Source of the DNA: Cochliopodium minus
Lineage: Eukaryota > Discosea > Himatismenida > Cochliopodiidae
DNA length: 63,713 nt
Reading direction: 5' to 3'
Assembly (NCBI GenBank): GCA_024220525.1
Contig: JAMYWO010000063.1
Coordinates: 113,775-177,487, forward strand
Position numbers and translations under genes: made by a program
Shown: positions 3,173 to 42,929 of the stretch, in pieces
Layout: every line of letters starts with the position of its first letter
How positions within the stretch are numbered: the stretch's first letter is position 1
The notes under the pieces: generated by a model
Told to the model about the DNA's origin: nothing
What the model saw: only the letters and a program-made list of their open reading frames with translations
Databases searched by the model: none

Positions 3173-6100
3173 TCAATCTATAGAAAGATAACCTTCACGC
3201 CCTTTTTTGATTCTAGATCTTCTTATTAACAAGATGATAATCACCAACACCAAAATGGCAGCAATACAACAGATCAGAATGAAAATGTAGTGCATTACGT
3301 AACATTTACCTAACATAAAAAATATTTAAAATTCAAATCTGACAAACCAAAATTTACAACTTTGTTAGCGGATATTAAATTTATCACTAACAAAACTATA
3401 TTATATAATATTTTAAAAACATTCTTAAAAAAAATGGGTTAGAAAAAAAAAAACCTGAGACACATATCAAACTGATTGGACATAACTGATCGGTGTTGGA
3501 AAATTGTACAGTCTTGGTGAAATCATAGTGCAACTTTTTGCTGACAAAATACTGGAGCCTGTTGAGCCAGAAGGGAGAGTTGTTGGAGTTTGAAGATAAA
3601 TCGAGAGCAAAGGAAGTGTGGTAGCCACTCCATCTACAAGTGATTCCTGACAAAAATGCTCTGACGAGAGCTTTGGTTCCGTTCTGAATGATTTGAGCGT
3701 CTCCCTCGAAGCAGCAGCATGTTTTTTTGTTGCATTTGCCTCCTATTTTGTAAGTTCCGCTCATTGATCCTTGGTTGATGATATTACCTGCTCGTTAAGA
3801 ATGGGGGAAAAAATAAAATGTTTGTGATAAAAATTAAAAACATTTATTAATAATAATTAAAATAATATTATAAATTTTATTAAAAAAATTTTTTGAATTA
3901 CACTCAGGCACATTGTAGCCTCCTTCGTAACCTAAGAAAGTTGTATCAAAAATAAATATTAAATAGACTTTAATATGGTGTCATTAAAAAAAATACCTGC
4001 ACATTCACTAATGTTGTTTCCTTTATTAAAAATTATTTTGAATAATATTCTTTAAATAATTTAATTAATATTTTTTTTTTTACCAGTGGAGTAAATAGAA
4101 TTGTTGAAGTAAGAGAGATTATTGATTTTTGCAGAACTGGACATATATCCTGTAGAACCACCTTTTTAAAATAAAAATAAAAAATAAAAAAATAAAAAAT
4201 AAAAAAAAATAAAAAAATAAAATAAAAACAAAAATAAAAAAAATAAAAATAAAAATAAAAATAGAAATAAAAAAAAAAATAAAAATAAAAAAAACAAAAA
4301 TAAATATAAAAATAAAAATAAAAATAAAAATAAAAATAAATAAATATAAAAATAAAATAAAAAATAAAAAATAAAATAAAAACAAAAATAAATTATTTCT
4401 GTTGAATATCAACCTGCATATGCTTCATGGGTGTTGTAAGAAAAAACAAGATTATTCTGGGTGTTGCAATTATTGATAACTGAATTTAACTCTTGGAAGC
4501 CAGCTATTCCACCAGAGTAACTACAAAAAAAAAATTTAAAAAAAATTTAAATTAAAAAATAAAAAATTTGAAAAAATAAAAAATTTGAAAAAATTTTTTT
4601 TATTTTCTTTTTATTACCTGGTATTTCCTTTATTTTTAAAAAAATTTAAATTTTTTTTTAATTTTAGTGGAATGGTGGTGATGATTACCAAATGCAAGAA
4701 CACTGTTGTTGTAAGATGAGCTAAATTGGATTACTGTTTGGAGGTTGCTTGCCAAAGAACCGGAATAACCAATTCCTCCTGTTAGAAAAAAATAAAATTG
4801 TTAAAAAATAAATTAAATAAAAAATAAAAAAAATATAATCAAAAAATAAAAATAAAATAAAAATAAAATAAAAATAAAATAAAAATAAAATAAAAATAAC
4901 AAAATGATATAAAAATAAATAATCAAAATAAAAAATAATCAAAAAATGAAAAAATAAAAAATAAAATAATTTTTTTAAATAAAAATATTAATAATTTTTT
5001 AAAAAAAAAATATTAATAATTTTTTAAAAAAAAAATAATATAAAATATTTTTTAACCAAAAGCATAAATGATATTATTGAAGGCATGAGTATTGTACATA
5101 GTGTTTTGGAGTAAACTGGAAACAGCAGAAGAGTAAACCTTCCCGTTGCAAGAAGCGACACCGGTGATTTCGTTGTTGAAGGAGCGGACGTCGGTAATGG
5201 AACCTCTGGTGTTTCCTGACACGCCCGCCGCTAGTGGAGGGTTTGTACAACCAGAGATGTATATGTTGTTGAAAGAAGAGTTACAATTAAATATTGGTCC
5301 TGCTTGAAAGGCTGTTATACCTAATAAAAAAATTTTATCAAAAAAAATTTATTAAAAAAAAACTGTTTGAAACAATAAAATAAAATTTTTGGGATTGATT
5401 TTGGAATTGAATAAAACTTTTGGATAAAAATAAACAATAGACTAAATAATCCTTACCTGAAAAGCAATACCCTTCGCCAGTGAAAGTGTTGGAATGAGAA
5501 ATAGAGTTTTCCTTTTATTAAAAAAAATAAAAAAAATAAAAAATAAAAAATATGAAAATAAAAAAAATAAAATAAAATTATAAAATCTGAAAAATAAATC
5601 ATGAAAAAAAAAAATAAAAAATGAAAAAATAAAAAAATAAATAAAAAATAAAAAAATAAATCATGAAAAAAATAAATCAAAAATAAAAAATTTTAAAATG
5701 AAAAAGTTACCAAGTTTCCCAGTTGTTGAGAAACAATACCAGCAGCTAGACCATTGATTTGGTTGGTATAAAAAGAATTAAAAGAGGAGTTGCAATTTGA
5801 AATCCAGCCTGATGTTTGAAGTGAAACCACCCCTCCTGCCTCTTGGCCGTTAAAGTAAGTACTGTTGAAATTATTGTGAAAAGAATTGCAAAATGTGATA
5901 TTTCCTACAAAAAAAAAGTTTTTAAAAATAAAAAAAAGGATAATTTCAATTAAATAATATTAAAAATATAATTAAACATAATACCAGATGCTTGTTGTGA
6001 AGAAATTCCAGCTAGAGATTCTCCTTGAAACTCGTTTAAATAAGAGCTACAACGATCAATGTTAGCTTCAGATTGGTAACCTTAAAGAAAAAGCAAATTA

Positions 6101-8258
6101 AAGCAAATGAAATATAATAAAAAAAATGTTAAATAATTTTTAAAATAAAATTTTCTGATGTCAACACTTTATAAAAAAAAAAACCTTACCAACAATACCA
6201 CCATTTCCGTAAGAAGAAGAAAAAAAATTGTTAAAAGAATTGCAGTTAATAACTAAGCTCTCTTGTCTCGCTGCGATTCCTCCTGTGAATGCTTGAGAGG
6301 AACCAGTGGAAACTATTTTGTTGTTGAAGGAATTGCAAAAAGAAACATCACCTAAATTTGAAATTAATTTAATTAAATTATAAAATTAAATTGAAAAAAT
6401 TACCGCTCTTCAAAATCCCTAAATCAAAGAAAAAATAATGAATTTAAGTAAAAATAGAAAAAACAAATTAATTGATATTAATTCAAAATAATAAACAATG
6501 ATAAATTGATGTTAATATGAAAAATTTCTCAAATAGAAATATAGTTGGACAATTAATTGAATAAATAAAATTATGTTCATAAATAATCTACCGACAATAC
6601 CACCAGTATAGAACAAACAAGAGAGAGAGTTGTTGAAAGAGTTGGAATTAGAAATTACGTTATCTTCAGATGGAGTGGAAACGCTCTTCTTCAAACCCAC
6701 GATGGCACCACAACCAGCGTTGACGACGGATTGAGAAGAGAGGATCTGATTGAAGGAGGAGGTACAGTTGTTTATTTTTCCTTCTCCTTGCTCTCCTACA
6801 ATCCCTCCTATGTCTGAGATTCCCTCTAAATAATTGTATGAAGACTCACTATTGATGATTTCTCCTGTTTCTTGAAAACCTACCAAACCACCCAAATTAG
6901 ATGCGAATATCTATTTCAAAAAAAAATAAAACAATTAAAACAATAAATTTAAAAAAAAATGTCAAAAACTTTAATTATTTTAAAAATAGAACGAATTTTT
7001 CAAACCACCATTTGTAACAACTCTTATTATACCAACAAAAAATTATTACCAACGAAGTCAATGTGTTATTGATGGAAATTGAGTCTAAAACAAGGTCACT
7101 TGCACCTGATAAACCACCAAGATTGACTGTTACAAATGAAATAAAATTAAATATATTTAAAAGTAAATGATTAATTCTACAAATTTTTAAAGTCTATTTA
7201 CCATTCCCCGCATTCTCACAAGTTATGTTATTGTTTCTGGACTCACAAAATGAAACGTTGGTTTCAGTGGAAACCCCACACAAACCTCCTATATAGTACT
7301 GTGTTCCAAAAGAAGAATCACTTGTGATGGTATTGTCCGAGGAAACAGAGGAGGAGATATTACTTCCTAAACATTTCGTTTAAAATGAAAAAAAAAAAGT
7401 TTTTTATAAAAGTGTATTGATCCAAATTGATATTTATAAAATAAAAAATGATATTTTCTTGGCCAAATTAATTCGTTTGTTATTACCTGATATGTATCCA
7501 AACACTCCTCCACAATAATTTTGTTGAGATGTGTTTGACATACTTGTAGATGTCAAAAAATTGTTCTTAGATGTTGCATATTCGATAGTATTATTGATGT
7601 TCATAGCAGATATTGCTCCTATTGTGGAGGTGGATGGAGATATTGATTGTATATTGGTATTAGACACCGTTATTCTTGATAGATGACTATTCTCGAGATA
7701 GGATACAATTCCTCCTACTGATTCTTTTCCATTCAATACATTACCTTGTTCAATATCAGAATTGATGTCTATATTTGTCAGAGTGCAATCTATGCACTGC
7801 GCAAACAAAATAGCCACATTTGATTGTACAGAATTTATAAACACATTTGTCAATGTAAGATCTTGGATGATTGCACCATTCCCAGATGCAAATAATGCTG
7901 TGGAAATAAAATATTGAATTATTTTATAATTTTGAGAATTGATTGATGGGCATATATTAATGTTTGTAATAAATATTTTTGATTATCTTCCAATTCATTT
8001 ACCATTGTTTTGGTCATTGTTTGAAAAATCGATGTTGGATATCCCAAAATTATTTCCATTGAATGTTCCTTTGAATTCTCCGTTTATTGTATTGAATTGG
8101 ACATCTTTACAATCCAAATTATTAGCCAATCTATAGATGATGGTATTATTATTGGTTTCAATCTCTTGGATCAATCCACAATTATTGATATCAATTATTT
8201 GGGATCTCATTTTAATAAAAGCTATTGTGATTATAAATAGAAATAATATAGACTTCAT
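3173..8258 (-). CDS. Large GLUG-motif type I surface protein, 18 exons
   Basis: Exons: 8003-8258, 7487-7897, 7202-7366, 7050-7126, 6592-6910, 6190-6351, 5985-6080, 5711-5904, 5457-5512, 5057-5320, 4689-4778, 4618-4627, 4414-4520, 4084-4161, 3997-4020, 3902-3931, 3455-3787, 3173-3309. The product is about 935 residues. It starts with a signal peptide (MKSILFLFIITIAFIKMRSQ). Next comes a GLUG/adhesin-type opening (LDCKDVQFNTINGEFKGTF) and many repeats of the type GGIVG...NN..S.NSF.N, as in extracellular beta-helix adhesins. Then follow a Cys-containing domain, one membrane helix (IFILICCIAAILVLVIIIL) and a 16-residue cytosolic tail RRSRIKKGREGYLSID carrying a YxxI sorting motif. N-glycosylation sequons are abundant. 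Most introns are phase 1, so repeat exons are symmetric. The model needs one T removed in a five-T run at 5458-5462; otherwise all phases close. Role in adhesion or recognition is inferred. Confidence 0.8.
4166..4396. repeat. A-rich simple-sequence intron tract
   Basis: Irregular AAAAAT/AAATAA units fill the intron between exons 12 and 13 of the surface-protein gene. Similar tracts occur at 4800-4970 and 5515-5690. All are A-rich on the plus strand because the gene is on the minus strand. Confidence 0.8.
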
Positions 8259-33137: not shown

Positions 33138-35727
33138 ATGATCGAACAAAAAAAAAAAATGCAGAATAACAACATCATTTATGTTCCTTTCAAATTGGAT
33201 GAAAATAGGCTTGGAAGTTTGGCTAATTTGACCGAATTTACCTTAATCTATATCTTAAAAATGTTGGATGAACATGATCTTCTCACAATGTCAGTGGTAT
33301 GCAAAACACTATATGTATATTGCAATGATGAAGAGATATGGAAGGTAATATTTTCAAAATATAATCAATGAGTCACATTATATTGAAAATATGTTTAAAA
33401 ATGATATAATTAATGCAACTTCAACATACTCCTTCTGATGCTTATTTATTTTTACAGAAAATTTGCCTCAACAAGCATAACAATAATTTTGAATATAAAA
33501 AAGATTGGAAGATCACAACCTTTTTCCAAAACAAAAAGTTAAAAAATGAATTCATCCCAATAAAAGTTCCATGTAAGAAAAAACAAATTTTTAAAAATAC
33601 ATTTATTTTGACTGAAAAGATCATTTGATCATAAAAAAAATATATTTTATTGAATATAACAATATTTTCTCTTATGATAGTTTTCAATTCTCCGAAATAC
33701 ACAAAAAAGTGGTACAGAACGTATTTGGATATAAAGTAACAAGAAATTTAAAATCTTTATTTCACATTTAAAAAAAAAAAAGACATTTCAGGCTGGAGAA
33801 AGACAACATAGGAAGAATTTCGGCCAAAACTACAACATTAGAAGAGTTTATAGAGAAATACGAAAAGACAGGGACCCCAGTGTAATAAAACATTAAAATT
33901 AAGAAAAAATAAAAAACTGTTGAATTAATTAAATTAAATTAAATAAATATCAAAAAAGAAAATGAAATGAAAAAAATTTAAAAAATACTCATAATTTTTT
34001 TTTAAAACTTTAAAAAAAGAATCATAACAAACGGTATGGACGATTGGCCTGCCACGAAAAAATGGCAAAGAGAAGAAATACTCAAAAACTATGGTCGGAG
34101 AGTTTTCAAAACGGACGAGAAAATCGCCAAAAAGAAAAATCTGAGAATGAAACTCTCTGAATACATGAACTACGGCAGTTTGCAAAAGGACGAGGAACCA
34201 ATGTATTTGTTCGACCCTGAGTTCGACACTAGTGCTCCTGAGATGATTTTTGATTATCAAGTGCCTAATTTTTTCAAAGAAGATTTCTTTAATGCTTTGG
34301 GGAGATTCGATCGTCCTTTCTTCAGGTGGTTTGGTAAATTTTTTCATTTTATTTTTTTATTATTTAATAAATTTTTAATTTTTATTTAATAATTTTTGAT
34401 TTTTAAAGAATTTTATTTTATTTTTTGATTTTACAACAATTTTTTATATAAAAAAGTTGTTGGTCCAGCTAGATCAGGGTAAATGAAAACATCATTCAGT
34501 TCAAAAAGAAATTAAATTTTACATTGGCAATACTTTTTTGATAAAAATTTTTTCATTTTGTTAGGAGCTCTTTTCATTTGGGTAATAGAAAATGATTTTT
34601 TTTTTTATTCGTTTTATATTTTAGATCCTTATTTCACTTCGGCTTGGGTATCAACTAATTTTTTTAATTTTTTTTTTCAATTTTTTTTTTCTTATTTTTT
34701 TTTTTTTAATTTTAAATTTTTTTTTTAATTTTTTTTTTAAAATTTTTTTTTTAAAAGAATGCATTGATTAGTGGAGAAAAAAGATGGACTCTCTATCCAA
34801 GGAACACCAACCCCCCAGGAATTTATAACAAGAAGGATTAGTAAAAAAAAAAAATTCCTTTTTTTTTGAATTATATTTACATGAAAATAAAAATTGTATA
34901 TTTGGCATTTGTTTTATCTCCAATATATCGATGTTTGATTTTTTTATTAAGTTAAAATTTTGTGTATCCTGACATATGTTTAATTAAAAATTGTTTCTCG
35001 TTTGTTAATTCAACTTTTTTTTTCATTTAGTCATTCAGAGGAGCCAATCAAATGGTTTGTTGAGGTTTATCCTCATTTAAGACCAGAGAACAAACCTATT
35101 GAATTCATACAGCGAGCAGGTTTTTTTTGAAAAAAAAAAGAAAGAAAAGAAAATTTTTCGATTTATTTTTGACAATTTTATCATTTTTTTTAACAAACTA
35201 GGAGAAATTGTATTCATTCCTTCCATGGTATTTCACCAAGTTCTAAATTTGACAGGTTAGTAAATTATCAATCATTTTTAATACACTTTGATAAATCTTT
35301 ATTAAAATTAATATTAATATTAAGTATTAACAAAATTGATAACATTTTAAATTTGAAACGCATTAAAATGAAATTTTAAATTACTCATCGAAAATTTGAC
35401 TAATAAGTTATTATATTAACAACTTTCTAATATTGTATTTTTTTTTTTGTATCATTGAAAACATAATTTAAAATTGTGGAATATTCTTAATTTTTTTTTT
35501 AAGAGACTATTGCTGTCACTCAAAATTTTTTCAATACTCACAACTTTGAGTTTTGCTGGCCAGACATTTGTAAGGACAAAGACATGGCCCTCAAATTGAT
35601 CGACCTTCACGCTCTCGAAAGACCTGACCTTTTTACCCTCAAAGCTTTGAAACTTGCTGGCAAAGATGAAGACTACCTTGTTGAGCTCCAGCATAAAAAA
35701 CAATTCAAATTTTGCTTGTGCAATTAA
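33138..35727 (+). CDS. F-box/JmjC fusion: JMJD6-type 2-oxoglutarate oxygenase
   Basis: Twelve exons: 33138-33344, 33458-33572, 33681-33735, 33792-33881, 34020-34333, 34457-34478, 34565-34581, 34625-34647, 34758-34840, 35031-35119, 35202-35255, 35504-35727. The product is 430 residues. Residues 20-70 form an F-box (FTLIYILKMLDEHDLL, MSVVCKTLYVYC, EEIWKVIF). The rest follows JMJD6: TTTLEEFIEKYEKTGTPVII, DDWPATKKW, DYQVPNFFKEDFF, RWFVVGPARSGSSFHLDP, SAWNALISGEKRWTLYP, GEIVFIPSMVFHQVLNLT, TIAVTQNFFN. Iron ligands are present: H272 and D274 of HxD, and distal H350. Three consecutive exons are 22, 17 and 23 nt, and the 17-nt exon encodes the HL of HLD. Plant JMJ21-type proteins also join an F-box to this fold. 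Expected activity is lysine or arginine hydroxylation/demethylation; substrate unknown. Confidence 0.88.
34914..34980 (+). repeat. Degenerate copy of the dispersed repeat
   Basis: TATCTCCAATATATCGATG followed by TTTGAT and, further on, TTTTGTGTATCCTGACATATG resembles the copies at 9311 and 31365 in order and spacing. It lies in intron 9 of the F-box/JmjC gene. The match is imperfect. Confidence 0.4.
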
Positions 35728-35950: not shown

Positions 35951-38900
35951 ATGGAAATACCTTGGTTTTACAACAACAAAAACATTACAGAAGAGTTCCC
36001 AAAGCTGATCTCTTCAAAGTTGGAAATTTGTTACCAAAACTTTATGAAGCACAAAAAGTTTGTTACTGTTAGTGTACAGCTCAATCTTAAGCAGTATGAA
36101 GTTAATTTTGAGAAGATGACGTTAATAGAGATCAAGACGAGGATTTCTTACGATGTTAAGCGAGGTGTGAAATGGAGATTTAAGAATCAGAACATGCAGA
36201 AAATGATCAAGAATCTCAAAGATTGTGCATGGTATTATTATGATAAAGAGAAAGATGAATGTGTATCTTTCTCAGAGAAAGCTCAGAAACAAATAGAGGC
36301 GAATTACCTTGAAAATAAAAAAAAAAAATTGAATCTGGAAGATGATCTGATGGTCATCAATTTCTCAAAGTACAAATGCAAGAGATCCAATGATACCTCC
36401 TATAGAATCTTGAGAAATAATAGTGTGCCCTTATGGTGTTATTTGAGGAAGAATAAATGGAGGACCTATACCAACGAGATCTCCATTTTGATCGAGGAGT
36501 CCTTCAATAATAAGAATACCAAGATGGAGATGACCCATAAATATGGATGGAACAAGAAGGAGACCGTCTTAATCTTTGATTTCATCAATTACGTTCAAAT
36601 AAAACCCAACACTAATGAGCCATCCATTCCTATCAAAAGAATCCCCTCAACCACATTCCCAGACAGGCAAATATACAAAAAATTTTCTATATATTCAACA
36701 TATTCAACTATTATTCAATTATAATCAAATGAGCTTATAATCGATTCCAAATCTCATATATTCCCTATCTTATATTTTAGGAATAGAGATATCAAACTGA
36801 ATAACATTGGAGAAGATCAATTGGATGAAATAAAGAGGGATGATAATCGAAAATATCTTGGCAACATTCAAGATATGTTGTATTCACAAAGGTTTAAAAA
36901 ATTTTTTTATATTTTTTATTATTATTAATTCAGTGATATTTAATAAATTTTTTTAAAAATAATTTATTCTTTTTTGATTAAGTACCCAAATTAAAATAAA
37001 TCCATCATTAAACTTTGGAACCTTACATCTTGCAATGAAAAGAATGGATTACGAAACTAAAGACAACCACTTGTTTACAGTGGAGAACATACTCAACCCA
37101 ACGGAATGCAAATACTACACGGACATCACAAACATAAAAGGATATTCTTACCATTCTCAAGCGTTTGAAAAAAAGAAAAGCACTGGAACAGAAACGTAAA
37201 AAAATAAACAATAAACAAATTAAACAAAAATTAACAATAAACAAATTAAACAAAAATAAACAATAAACAATAAAAATGATAAAAATAAAAAATAACAAAA
37301 AAATAATAAAAAATAATAAAATTTTAAAAACAGCAAATAAATAAAAGTTTTTATTTTTAACCTTTTTAAAAATCATTTAATTTATTTTCTTTTTTTTTAG
37401 TATACTGGTTAATGACGAAAAGTTGTCAGAATACATCTGGTTCAAATTACAAAGAGTGTTGAAGACAGAGGAGATTGTGTTTGTGAAACCCCAAGGGTAC
37501 GGCGAGAAACTTTCCTTGAGAGCCTGCAACATCAACAAATGCCTCAAATTTACCAAGTACGCTGCCAAACAGGAAAGGAGTTACCCTATTTTGGATGGTC
37601 CTTTTGACAAACTTGAAGAAAACTATAGTTTGTTTACCATCCTCATTTTTTTGAACGATGATTACGAAGGAGGATCAATAAATTTTAAGAAGCAAGAACA
37701 GTACACTTCTTCAATGAATGATCAAAGTAAAAAAAAAAATAAAAAAAAAAATTTTAAAATAAAAAACAAAAACACAAAAGTTTTTTAAAAACTTTTTTTT
37801 ACGTTTTTTTTTTTTAAAATGATCAGATCATCATGCCAAAATTGCTCCTGCTACTGGAAAAGCCCTAATTTTCCCCCATGGTGTTCCATTTGAACAATCT
37901 GTTGTTACAAATGGAACAAAATATATCTTGAGAACAGAATGTAACACATCTTAATGTTTCTGATGTTTATTAAGAAATTTTTTATAAATTTGCTTATTTT
38001 TCCTTGATTTTTTTAGTTAATTTCAAATTTAAATAATTTCTTTTTTATTATTTTCAATTTTTCTTTTATTCTTTTAAACACTTTTAAAATTTTCTATTTA
38101 AAAAATAGTGATGTACAAGAAAATAGAACTGGTTTCATCTGAAAGAAAAAAAGGGAATGAAGAGGATTTCTCGAAATATCAAAAACCAATCACCCTGTAC
38201 AAAAACTCGATTAACCCAGAAAACAAGAAGATAGACGACACTTATTCGCTTGCTAACATCGTCCACATCAACCATTTAATCGATTGTATCAACAACCAGT
38301 TTTGGGGGATCCCCAAGAATATTTGGATTAAAATAATCATGTATTTACCATGTAATGATATATGTTCCATGTTGAGCGTTTGCAAATATTTCAAGAATGG
38401 TAACTTTTAATATTATTATTTATAAATAAAAAAAAAAAACCATTTATTCATTGTTATTGGAATTTTCTCATCCTCTTTTTTTTTTCTATTATTCCTAATT
38501 TATATTTTTTTTTTCTATTTTTCCCATATTTATGAATAATTATTAACGAGTTAATAAAGTTATCTTTGATTTACAATTTTGTTTATGATTTTGTTTTATC
38601 ATTATTCGTAAAAAAATTTTAATTAGAAATTTTAAATATATTTTTTTTAATTTATATATTTTTTAAATTTTTAAAAAAAATTTTTTTGTTCAAAAAAAAA
38701 AAGTTGGAGAAAATAACATGATTTGGAAAAACCTTCTTTTCAATTCGAGTATCTTCAAGATCTTCAATTTCCCATTCGGAATCAACGCCGACCAACTCCG
38801 CAAGAGTTCTGACGTCGAAAGAAACTGGCTCCAAACCTTCAAATACATCAAGAACCAAGTACAGTCTCCCATTGGCAACATCGTTTCGATCGATCTCGGA

Positions 38901-41663
38901 AGACTGTTCATCAAGTTTGGCAACAAGACGTTTAACAAGTCCACTGACAACATTTGTATTGTTTGTGGGAAATACTCTCACAAGAAATTTCTATTTTTTG
39001 AGCTTGATGGTTTCATTTGTAACGGTTGTTTGGTAAAAATAAATTTGTATTTATTTACAATATTATTTTGTTTTATTTATTATTTATTATTAATTCTTTT
39101 TATTTTTTATTAAATATTTTTTTAAAATTCTTTTATTTTTTAAAGAATAATTCTTTTTATTATTTTTGTTTTTGCTTTTTTTTTATACTTATTATTTTTA
39201 TTATTTTTCTTTGTTTTATTATTTATTTATTATTTATTATTTATTTTTTATTTCAAATTGTTAATTATTTATTATTTTAATTATTTATATTAATTATTCA
39301 TTTTTTATTTTTGTTCATTTTGTATGTTTCATATTTATTGATTTCTTATTTTAATTTATTGTTTTTTTATTTTTTTATTAATATTAAAAGTCATGTTCTG
39401 TGTGCAACGAGAACATCTATGAAAAAGTTTCCTCTATCCACTTCCTTTACGAGGACAACAAATACAAGTTCTTTTGCTTCAATCATGCCAACAGTCTTTT
39501 GCACCATAAGCTCCCCCTTGAGTCAAGACCATTCTACTGGAAAATCTACACAAGAAAAGTAGAAAATATAACTTCTTTTTCCAAAACTTATTTTTATGGT
39601 AGTGTCAACATCTTTCATTTATTTTTTATTATTTTCTAATTTTTTTTTTTAATTCCATTAATTTTATTCATTTTCTTCATTTTCTTTTATTTTCTTTTAA
39701 TTATATCAAATTTTCAATTTATTTTATTTCATTTTAATTTTTATTTCTTTATTTTTTCATTTTTATTTTTATTTTAATAATTTTCATTTTATTTACAATT
39801 TTATTTACAATTTTTTTAATTTTATTAATTTTATTAATTTTATTAATTTTATTAATTTTTTCAATTTTATTTTCATATTTATAAAAAAAGCAAGAGGAGG
39901 AGGGACCAGCTTCAACTACTGTTTCGGATTAGACAAAGTTTTGGATGCGAAATTCGATGACGGATTCCAATATTTCATCCCCATCTCCCCCAACCGAGCC
40001 ATTCAATCTGTTGAATACGTAGGAAGGTTAATCAACGACATCGCCCAAAGGTCCGAAACTATCGTCTTTGTAGAACCTAGAACAGGGTTTTTTGAGAAAT
40101 TTTTGGAAAAAGATATCATGCAGGGTAATTTTTTACAAGAAAAAAAAAAAAAATTATTTATTTATTTTATTTATTTTTTTTAATTATTTTATTTTTATTT
40201 TTTAATTTTTATTTTATTTTTATTTTTATTATTTATTTATTTTTTATTATTTTTTGTTTATTTTTATTTATTTTTATTTTTTATTTTTATATATGAAATA
40301 ATTTTTTAAAAAAATATTTCCATTTTCATTTGATTGGATTTATTATTTATCTATTTTTATTTTTATTTTTTAAAACTAATTTTTTTTGTTTTTATTTTTT
40401 TCAATTTTATTTTTTTTTTTCATTAATGTTATATTTTTTAATAAAAAATTTTCTTATTTTTTTTATTTTTTATTTTTGTTTTTTGACATTTGCACTTAAA
40501 GCAAAAGGAATTTCTTGCTACATCACAGTTCCCCATCCTATTGCAGCACTTTCCAATTATCATACTACACAGGGATTAGTGATAGACATCAACAGCTGCG
40601 CATTAAATGCATGGGCTGTAATCAACGAAAAGAGTAAAAACAAAAATATTCTTTTTGAAATTTTGAATTAATCATCATTAAAATTTTTTTTTTTATTATT
40701 TAATTTTTTTTTTCAATTTTTATTTTTTATTTTTAATTTTTTTTATTTTTTTATTTTTATTTTTTATTTTTTATTTTTTATTTTTTATTTTTTATTTTTT
40801 ATTTTTTATTTTTTATTTTTTATTTTTTATTTTTAAAAAAAAGTTATAGCAGAACTCCCATTCGACATGTACGAACACGGAATAGATTGTCCTCACCAAT
40901 ACAACCAATACCACTGCGCCTCCACCAAGAAAACTTTTTTCGAGCTCGATTCTGAGGTGGTCAAAAACTTCTGGGTTGACATCAAGTCTGTTGTTCACGA
41001 CACTCACCTCCCTTCTTTTTTGGTTGAACGGGTTCTTGATCTCTTGAATTCTTTGAATACTGCTCAGCTCAAGCAGGTTTTGAGTTGTATTGTCGTCACA
41101 GGAAGTATTATTTTTTATTTTAATTAAATTAATAATTTTTAATAAAATAATTTTTAAATTTGGTTTTGTATATTGAAAATTTTTAGCTTAATAATTTAAG
41201 TTTTTTTATTATATTTTATTAATTTTCTTGTTTTATTAATATTATTTTTTCAAAATGTTAATTATTTAAATTTAAAGTTTTTAAAGTTTTTCATTCATTT
41301 TTTTTTCTAAAGGTTTCGTCACAGAGAAACTCTTAGTTTCAATTGAAAAGCTCTTTGAAAAATTTATAGATTCCAAGATCCAATTCAACCTCATCAAAAA
41401 CTTCGACATAGGAGGATCCATCATCAAACACGATCCAGTCTCGTGTCATGTGGTGGGTGCAATATCATGGTACGAAAGAAATATCATTGGTAAAAAAATT
41501 AATTTTTATCATTATTTTCAATTTATTTTAATTTTTATTAATAGAGTGTCGCAGGAACAACAAATATGATGATTTTATCAAAAGGCATAAGTGGTTGTCT
41601 AATTCTTTGAACATACGAAAGAGGGTGGTCCATTCTTTCAAGTCCAATTTCATCTATTACTAA
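35951..41663 (+). CDS. Giant fusion: 3x WWE - P4H-like - F-box - actin-related protein with LIM-like insert
   Basis: Thirteen exons: 35951-36666, 36781-36891, 36983-37195, 37401-37726, 37827-37940, 38109-38399, 38704-39032, 39391-39598, 39891-40124, 40502-40633, 40844-41104, 41313-41489, 41545-41663. Every junction closes in phase, giving 1076 residues. Residues 4-70, 93-155 and 161-230 are WWE domains. About 290-500 is a prolyl-4-hydroxylase-like fold (LFTVENILNPTEC, TILIFLNDDYEGGSINF, ATGKALIFPHG, GTKYILRTELMYKKIE). Its iron histidines are replaced. About 557-602 is an F-box (IPKNIWIKIIMYLP, SMLSVCKYFKN). About 648 onward is an actin-related fold (GNIVSIDLGRLFIKFG, TIVFVEP, GLVIDINS, NFDIGGSIIK, VVGAISWYER). 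It is interrupted at 675-732 by a LIM-like zinc module. Arabidopsis ARP8 is a known F-box/ARP fusion; the WWE and P4H parts are extra. Intron 1 is GC-AG. Function as an SCF scaffold is inferred. Confidence 0.85.
40741..40836. repeat. (ATTTTTT)n heptanucleotide microsatellite
   Basis: About eleven near-perfect seven-base units lie directly before the acceptor of exon 11 of the fusion gene. The same unit occurs at 14091-14150 and, reversed, at 2150-2216. Confidence 0.85.
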
Positions 41664-41827: not shown

Positions 41828-42847
41828 TCATTCAGAGTTGGCGTGATTCATAGCAATGTCAATGCCTTTGTTTAGATACAACTCGAGGGTTTGATCCACC
41901 TTAGGAAATACTCCCTCGATCAACCTTTGCTTCTGTTGGGTAGCTACATCCAGTAAAATAAATAAATCGAAACAAAATTTTAAAATAAATAAAAAAATTA
42001 ATTAAAAAAATTAATAAAAAATAAATAATAAAATATATTTTTTAGATCCAAAAAAAAACTCTTTTACAAAAATTCTTTAATACAAACTCCGCAAGGTTCT
42101 TTTTGTTGGGAGCACCGATGCCAATCCTCAATCTCGAAAAATCGTTGGTTCCCATCTTGGCAATGATGTCTTTGATCCCATTTTGCCCTCCATCACTGCC
42201 AAACTTCTTCAACTTGATGGATCCAAACTCTATGTGGTTGCAATCGTACAGAATCATCATGTTGGTGATGGGAACGTTGAAATGTTTGGAGATTGGTTTG
42301 ACTGCTTCGCCTGAGAGGTTCATGAAGGTTTGTGGCTTGCAGAGGATCACGATGGAGGAGTTGTTGTGTTGGGAGATCGAGATGCCTGAATTGAATTTCG
42401 AAGAGAAGAACCATTTCAATCCCCTCTTTTCTGCAAACTGATCAATACACTAATTAAAAAAATTAATTATTATCATCTGACCTTTTCTTTATATCAATGA
42501 TAATGATATATCTCCATATTATTTTGAACTTTTTATTTTAATATATGATATGATTGATTATTCTATGTTTAATGATAATATTTTCATCATCTTACTTGAA
42601 ATCCAACATTATGTCTTGATTCTTCATATTCCTTTCCAGGATTTCCCAATCCACAAATCAAATAGGTTTTGGTATTCGAAGGGAGAGAATCATTCTTTCC
42701 AAGAAGAATATTTCTCCATTCAGATTTGTTTCTTTTGGAGATGAGAATGATATCATTCTTCCAACATATCTCCTTAATTTGAAATATCTTTTTCATTTCT
42801 TTGCAATTTTTTTTATATTTTTTTTTGTATAATAAAGTGAAAAACAT
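41828..42847 (-). CDS. PTRH1: Peptidyl-tRNA hydrolase (bacterial Pth type)
   Basis: Three exons (42596-42847, 42068-42449, 41828-41943) give 249 residues. The Pth core is intact: [13 protein letters not shown] with Asn69, ESRHNVGFQ with the catalytic His79, [24 protein letters not shown] with the conserved Asp, [14 protein letters not shown] with the conserved Asn, and [16 protein letters not shown]. It releases tRNA from prematurely dropped peptidyl-tRNAs. The 60-residue basic extension before the core ([20 protein letters not shown]) fits mitochondrial import. A second in-frame Met at about residue 18 is a possible alternative start. Confidence 0.92.
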
Positions 42848-42929
42848 GATCGATCATGTTTTTAAAGAAATTAAAATTAATTTTATTATAATAAATTGAA
42901 AGAGAATTGAAAAAGAAAAGCAAAGGAGA

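Follow-up and report, generated by a model that had tools for sequence, protein, structure and literature searches.

In RNF146, Deltex, HUWE1 and TRIP12 a WWE reader is joined to ubiquitin transfer, and these proteins are RING or HECT ligases, not F-box receptors. A second combination is known from plants, where Arabidopsis ARP8/SUSA2 (At5g56180) consists of an N-terminal F-box followed by an actin domain and associates with the Skp1 protein ASK1 (PMC7562919). Target recognition is a predicted role of this actin domain, three mutant versions with four actin-domain residues altered in all were still functional, and the F-box plus ACTIN combination is stated to occur only in the plant lineage (PMC7562919). 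In Dictyostelium, JcdI and JcdH (F-box plus JmjC, JMJD6-like) are F-box proteins with a 2-oxoglutarate (2OG)-type dioxygenase of their own; they bind Skp1, belong to an F-box group across protists and are linked to O2 sensing, on which single and double knock-outs had no effect (PMC9485057). Prolyl hydroxylation is also linked to the Skp1-cullin-F-box (SCF) ligases through Skp1 by the PhyA-type Skp1 prolyl 4-hydroxylase, a separate protein modifying Skp1. Here we consider a gene of Cochliopodium minus (Discosea), located in a stretch of 63,713 nucleotides (contig JAMYWO010000063.1, positions 113,775 to 177,487, assembly GCA_024220525.1; hereafter the window), in which three WWE repeats, a prolyl 4-hydroxylase (P4H)-like domain, an F-box, a zinc module and an actin-like part are encoded together.

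The original prediction, made from the letters of the window, had compared this gene with plant ARP8, and the likeness is one of described module order: the F-box precedes the actin-like part, with the zinc module between a hairpin and the remaining actin-like part, whereas WWE, oxygenase and zinc module are not described for ARP8 in the accessible sections (PMC7562919). JcdI and JcdH differ in having a JmjC oxygenase and not one of P4H type, and an actin-like part or WWE is not mentioned for them in the sections at hand (PMC9485057). No single protein combining WWE, P4H, F-box and actin was found in the open-licence papers covered, mostly at abstract level. The C. minus genome unites the F-box plus actin pairing described as plant-only (PMC7562919) and the pairing of an F-box with a 2OG dioxygenase, of which the protist kind is JmjC (PMC9485057), in one repeated plan with WWE repeats added.

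When the window protein was compared with its own assembly (44.65 Mb, 598 contigs), 46 exon-level matches were obtained, 13 in its own gene and 33 elsewhere, and five more genes, located on four contigs, were assembled by spliced alignment: C105, the tandem pair C156a and C156b on C156, C157 and C114. The sister proteins measure 961 to 1119 residues, share 35-41% identity with the window protein and 46-86% among themselves, and have the same module order, with one WWE repeat in C157 and three in each other member. Judged by these sequences, the window gene is a member of a multigene family and not a misjoined model, since five other genes on four contigs keep the same order of modules. Pfam recognised WWE, 2OG oxygenase and F-box in all six members. 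In the window protein the three predicted WWE domains were recovered as three stretches (1.5e-16) and the F-box by F-box-like (2.8e-6; 27.5 bits vs. a cut-off of 24.3), both exceeding the Pfam cut-offs, together with a weak 2OG oxygenase; residues after the F-box had no match. Partial relatives comprising P4H, linker and F-box are present on C42 and C78, in the latter case at the 5' end, where the contig is partly masked; they were left out of the five-sister counts, and the two C78 stretches may come from different copies.

The predicted coordinates, 13 exons and 1076 residues were reproduced on rejoining the exons, with 12 introns in phase and the stop at 41663, and the spliced aligner recovered the identical 12 introns in a self test on this gene. 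Splice sites are GT-AG in 11 introns and GC-AG in intron 1; introns are 55-377 bp long with 4-21% G+C, against 31-43% in exons. Acrasis kona, whose introns measure 9-95 bp (PMC11589745), was weighed as a source and discarded on this difference. The features are collected in Table 1.

Table 1. Position and basis of the features of the fusion gene and its upstream neighbour (numbering of the window).
Feature	Position	Strand	Basis
Whole fusion gene, 13 exons, 1076 aa	35951..41663	+	Exon joins, splice sites, phases; spliced alignment
WWE1; Leu58 where the adenine-binding Gln is expected	35963..36163	+	Pfam; residue comparison
WWE2	36230..36391	+	Pfam
WWE3; Gln kept, without Arg	36431..36640	+	Pfam; PDB profile; residue comparison
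Intron 1, GC-AG	36667..36780	+	Sister models: no intron at exactly the same place
P4H-like domain, aa 290-500, interrupted by introns	37023..38128	+	Pfam 2OG-FeII_Oxy_3; PDB profile
I410-L411-D412, HxD iron motif with His lost and Asp kept	37588..37596	+	Alignments; H in 5/5 sisters
F477 replacing the distal iron-binding His	37889..37891	+	Alignments; H in 5/5 sisters
K487, ten residues past F477, kept	37919..37921	+	Invariant in six-member alignment
Intron 5, inside the last P4H strand	37941..38108	+	Place and phase common to all six genes
Linker from P4H to F-box, aa 501-556	38129..38296	+	Alignments; called helical from the look of its sequence alone
F-box, aa 559-603, interrupted by intron 6	38303..38741	+	Pfam F-box-like
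Hairpin with IDLGRLFIKFG	38886..38927	+	D654, G656, R657, K661 invariant in six-member alignment
Zinc module C675 C678 C696 C699 C702 C705 C729 H732, interrupted by intron 7	38955..39486	+	8/8 ligand-type residues invariant in six members
Actin-related part, aa 770-1055	39891..41597	+	Fold of C156a domain; 44-47% identical residues in alignment with four full sisters
Upstream neighbour, separate F-box + JmjC gene, exons read by eye	33159..35727	+	Pfam; genome search

Oxygenases of the P4H type that use 2OG and Fe(II) carry an HxD...H iron triad. This triad is whole in the five full sisters, in the C42 relative and in the two C78 stretches, and the window copy alone among the six members has lost both iron-binding histidines (I410 and F477); this loss, in a family where all five sisters keep both residues in the alignment, is the new finding here. 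Alignment A3 was used in place of A2, in which some short rows were misaligned; the fault persists in part for one short row of the window copy in A3. K487, at what we take to be the 2OG-binding place, is kept. The 2OG-FeII_Oxy_3 profile scored 18.2 bits on the window protein, below its cut-off of 27, matched six of six members at E up to 1 and reached 1.2e-10 in the best member; the family P4H profile matched the bacterial P4H 5hv0 (6e-4) and 2jig (5e-3), which we take to be the Chlamydomonas P4H, both chains of about 220 residues without other modules. The P4H-like module had been predicted as such and stands as a homologous domain, but not as a working oxygenase. We read the window P4H domain as having become a pseudoenzyme, within an SCF receptor read as intact; in lacking the iron-binding histidines it is also unlike PhyA.

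The WWE repeats call for a similar qualification. In known structures of WWE readers a conserved Gln contacts the adenine (PMC11269756). This residue, compared in WWE1 and WWE3 (the WWE2 piece ends before that place), is Gln in WWE1 of 5/5 sisters and Leu in the window copy, whose WWE3 has Gln. The Arg of the ligand site is kept in WWE1 of three of five sisters and in WWE3 of none of the four sisters aligned, and the window copy is without both. The family thus keeps ligand residues only in part, unlike the WWE-bearing ligases, although the WWE3 part of its profile matches the RNF146 WWE (PDB profile search, 1.3e-5). Among WWE sites invariant in the sisters the window copy changed one of 13, namely the WWE1 Gln, only 13 being countable as C157 lacks two repeats. 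ADP-ribose recognition, predicted in unqualified form, is not supported in that form, the Gln being replaced in WWE1 and kept in WWE3. The assembly contains 23 exon-level matches to PARP and six to Skp1.

Tentatively, we favour a single gene for an SCF-type substrate receptor that combines WWE repeats and a P4H-type Fe(II)/2OG oxygenase with an F-box, the zinc module and the actin-like domain. F-box proteins in general bind Skp1 while holding a target. Here the F-box would dock on Skp1, the actin-like domain and zinc module would hold the substrate, as proposed for plant ARP8/SUSA2, and the WWE repeats would bind ADP-ribose or a similar ligand in addition. The oxygenase of the sisters would hydroxylate the held protein or Skp1, so that the ligase would respond to oxygen or 2OG. 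The window copy, because docking and holding would be kept and hydroxylation lost, might be an oxygen-insensitive receptor or a competitor of the active sisters. The wider picture, in which SCF receptors, equipped with an oxygenase of their own and an actin-like recognition head that diversifies, couple oxygen or 2OG to the destruction of ADP-ribosylated proteins and the dead window copy is kept as an oxygen-blind competitor, seems to us unlikely to hold in full. A live and a dead oxygenase in otherwise alike receptors would offer a direct test of a 2OG oxygenase gating an SCF ligase.

Several results weigh against this receptor. Its function is read from domains only, and the predicted actin-related part was missed by every sequence family search: PF00022 matched none of the six proteins or the family loci, a PDB sequence-profile search gave no actin match for the actin-like part, and profile-profile comparison (hhalign) with actins of the own genome was weak, with a best P of 0.007 and one of 60 column shuffles scoring higher. 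Structure prediction, which the original prediction had named as a check, was run on sister C156a, and the model of its actin part did match actin- and Arp-bearing structure entries (Arp, actin-related protein; Foldseek, VIA), so that an actin fold of the C-terminal part is supported with less certainty. The confidence is low: the model has a mean predicted local distance difference test score of 52 with one intron retained in its sequence, the rows listed by Foldseek have TMq 0.17-0.26 and root-mean-square deviations of 8.6-18 A, one of 718 matches reached E <=0.001, and VIA re-aligns Foldseek's own matches.

The pattern of change in the window copy bears on the docking step as well. The sites counted were those invariant in all five sisters, which alone inflates the change of the left-out gene, so that the contrast between domains is the result; C156b, a near copy of C156a, was omitted from mean identities and kept in these counts. 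The window copy changed 47 of 89 such sites in the P4H core (41/83 when the six columns of a deletion are excluded), 17/42 in the N-terminal portion of P4H, 9/20 at residues 613-669, 4/17 in the zinc module and 7/74 in the actin-like part. The change is not confined to P4H, as linkers 236-289 (12/18) and 501-556 (15/23) and the F-box stretch (10/24) were affected too. In unrooted trees, where the window branch may include part of the stem, the terminal branch of the window copy was 1.40 for P4H vs. 0 to 0.24 for the sisters, 1.25 for linker and F-box vs. 0.05 to 0.75 (the latter C114), and 0.59 for the actin-like part vs. 0.78 in C157 and 0.77 in C114. In these alignments the faster change is one that covers P4H and both linkers, the F-box less, and spares the zinc ligands, actin-like part and WWE repeats. 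Since linkers and F-box change faster, Skp1 docking by the window copy may be weakened too.

A scaffold outside SCF, whose F-box would serve only to bind Skp1 or a partner and whose actin-like part would have a role in complexes of chromatin or cytoskeleton like other Arps, is in our view doubtful but not far-fetched. Some F-box proteins do act outside SCF, and the first VIA row was Arp7 of a chromatin complex; however, actin and Arps were tied among the VIA rows within 1 Z, which gives no pointer to chromatin, and the F-box is kept in six of six members. Overexpressed JcdI exerted its O2 effect in Dictyostelium without need of its F-box, which speaks for such a role (PMC9485057).

Turning from the whole protein to its P4H domain, we consider it improbable that activity persists in the window copy through a different set of ligands, e.g., H473 and D412. 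Both residues and K487 are invariant in the six members, and H473, located four residues ahead of F477, might conceivably serve as iron ligand instead, a further point against the pseudoenzyme; yet the 47 sister-invariant core sites that changed include W386, W415 and a six-residue deletion. The same losses, i.e., both iron-binding histidines, the WWE1 Gln and a piece of the P4H domain, together with the faster change of linkers and F-box, would also fit a decaying pseudogene of the family. We consider this highly improbable, as the frame is open through 1076 codons and 12 introns at 35-41% identity to the sisters, whereas simulated neutral change at 5% of sites introduced a mean of 13.7 stops (200 runs; minimum 3 in another 200), and the actin part, zinc ligands and WWE repeats resemble those of the sisters about as much as C114's do.

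The original prediction had argued for a single fusion from the RTE|LMYKKIE junction, split by the intron between exons 5 and 6, and this junction is real. Two introns are common to all six genes, at window residue 347 (phase 2) and residue 494 (phase 1, intron 5, where the original prediction had allowed for a split into two genes); the latter measures 168 nt in the window gene, 117 in C105, 60 each in C156a and C156b, 68 in C157 and 155 in C114, and M495 and K497, just past it, are invariant in the family alignment. In C105, C156a and C156b one and the same exon encodes the WWE repeats together with the beginning of P4H, and the introns (347, 412, 494, 587 and 770) interrupt P4H, its end, the F-box and the actin-like part; one exon spans the F-box end, hairpin and whole zinc module in C105 and C156b, with the same read in C156a. 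Two or more adjacent genes (WWE-P4H and F-box-zinc-actin) misjoined by exon chaining can hardly be the explanation, and we reject it because intron 5 is shared in place and phase and is 60 nt long in two sisters, leaving little room for transcript end, promoter and leader, cuts a P4H fold strand (assigned from the family motif), and is accompanied in C105 and both C156 copies by introns within modules and an exon joining WWE to P4H, even if exon 6 could open at the conserved in-frame ATG (M495), read-through of intron 5 meets a stop after four codons, and the single-gene model derives from genomic sequence.

The receptor reading assigns substrate holding to the zinc and actin-like part, which is also the segment that varies most between the otherwise near-identical tandem copies. 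These copies, C156a and C156b (C156:55500-65499, L030), form a mosaic: the proteins show no difference at positions 76-525 of the window protein, are almost the same up to 650 and again do not differ at 876-1000, while at 651-850 only 106 of 217 columns are alike (blocks of 25 from 7/28 to 22/35), with one closer block at 726-750 (22/25). Positions 1-75, which include WWE1, are alike in 54/84 columns. At the DNA level the two flanks agree at 98.7% (2251 nt) and 97.1% (625 nt), with a 144-nt piece between at 89.6%. The difference centres on the zinc module and the first half of the actin-like part, and such a pattern would fit a scaffold that stays constant and a recognition segment that is exchanged or diversifies, pointing at the zinc/actin segment as the variable part.

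The zinc module had been described as LIM-like. LIM domains follow the spacing C-x2-C-x16-23-H-x2-C-x2-C-x2-C-x16-21-C-x2-C/H/D; here the third place is Cys, and the second loop has 23 residues in the window copy and more in the sisters. The resemblance in ligand spacing and the eight invariant Cys/His stand, but no Pfam LIM match was found in the six members, and the best PDB rows were RING and zinc-finger chains at E 0.2. LIM or RING identity was set aside, there being no family match in the Pfam and PDB searches. The hairpin before it (IDLGRLFIKFG) presumably resembles the actin phosphate-1 motif.

Among viral sequences, 350 stretches encoding relatives of the P4H part were found, and the best 80 of 350 are 28-47% identical over the matched piece (33% for the first-ranked); these were read as general P4H likeness, and viral kinship of this part was not retained. 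The C105 actin-like part, in a comparison able to detect close relatives only, gave one pattern match and no stretch encoding a relative. A large actin/Arp set is present in the own assembly (83 exon-level actin-family matches), and one actin-family match lies just upstream of the C114 member on the opposite strand (C114:84403-84768).

Among the partial loci, C42 (L053 3723-5441) carries a P4H-linker-F-box gene with the iron triad intact and one weak downstream zinc-module match; family profiles at E 0.01 gave no WWE and no actin-like part there. An actin-like part of the family lies on C78 near 58.7-59.6 kb (L033 3745-4606), with no clear F-box, P4H or WWE match within the 9.9 kb read. On C439 (L051), WWE pieces and an F-box-profile match (9.3e-6) are found on the same strand about 3 kb apart (4025-4390 and 7590-7661).

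The fusion gene itself gave no Pfam match to JmjC, which was found in its upstream neighbour. This separate F-box/JmjC gene, of the JcdI/JcdH kind, has its stop 223 bases before the ATG of the fusion gene; of its six matches in the own assembly, four are at the window and two on C68, not beside other family members. No tRNA genes were found in the window, and an 18-base word of the 18S rRNA gene did not occur in the assembly. Downstream, a gene on the minus strand (42042-42853), recognised by eye from its translations, looks like a peptidyl-tRNA hydrolase.

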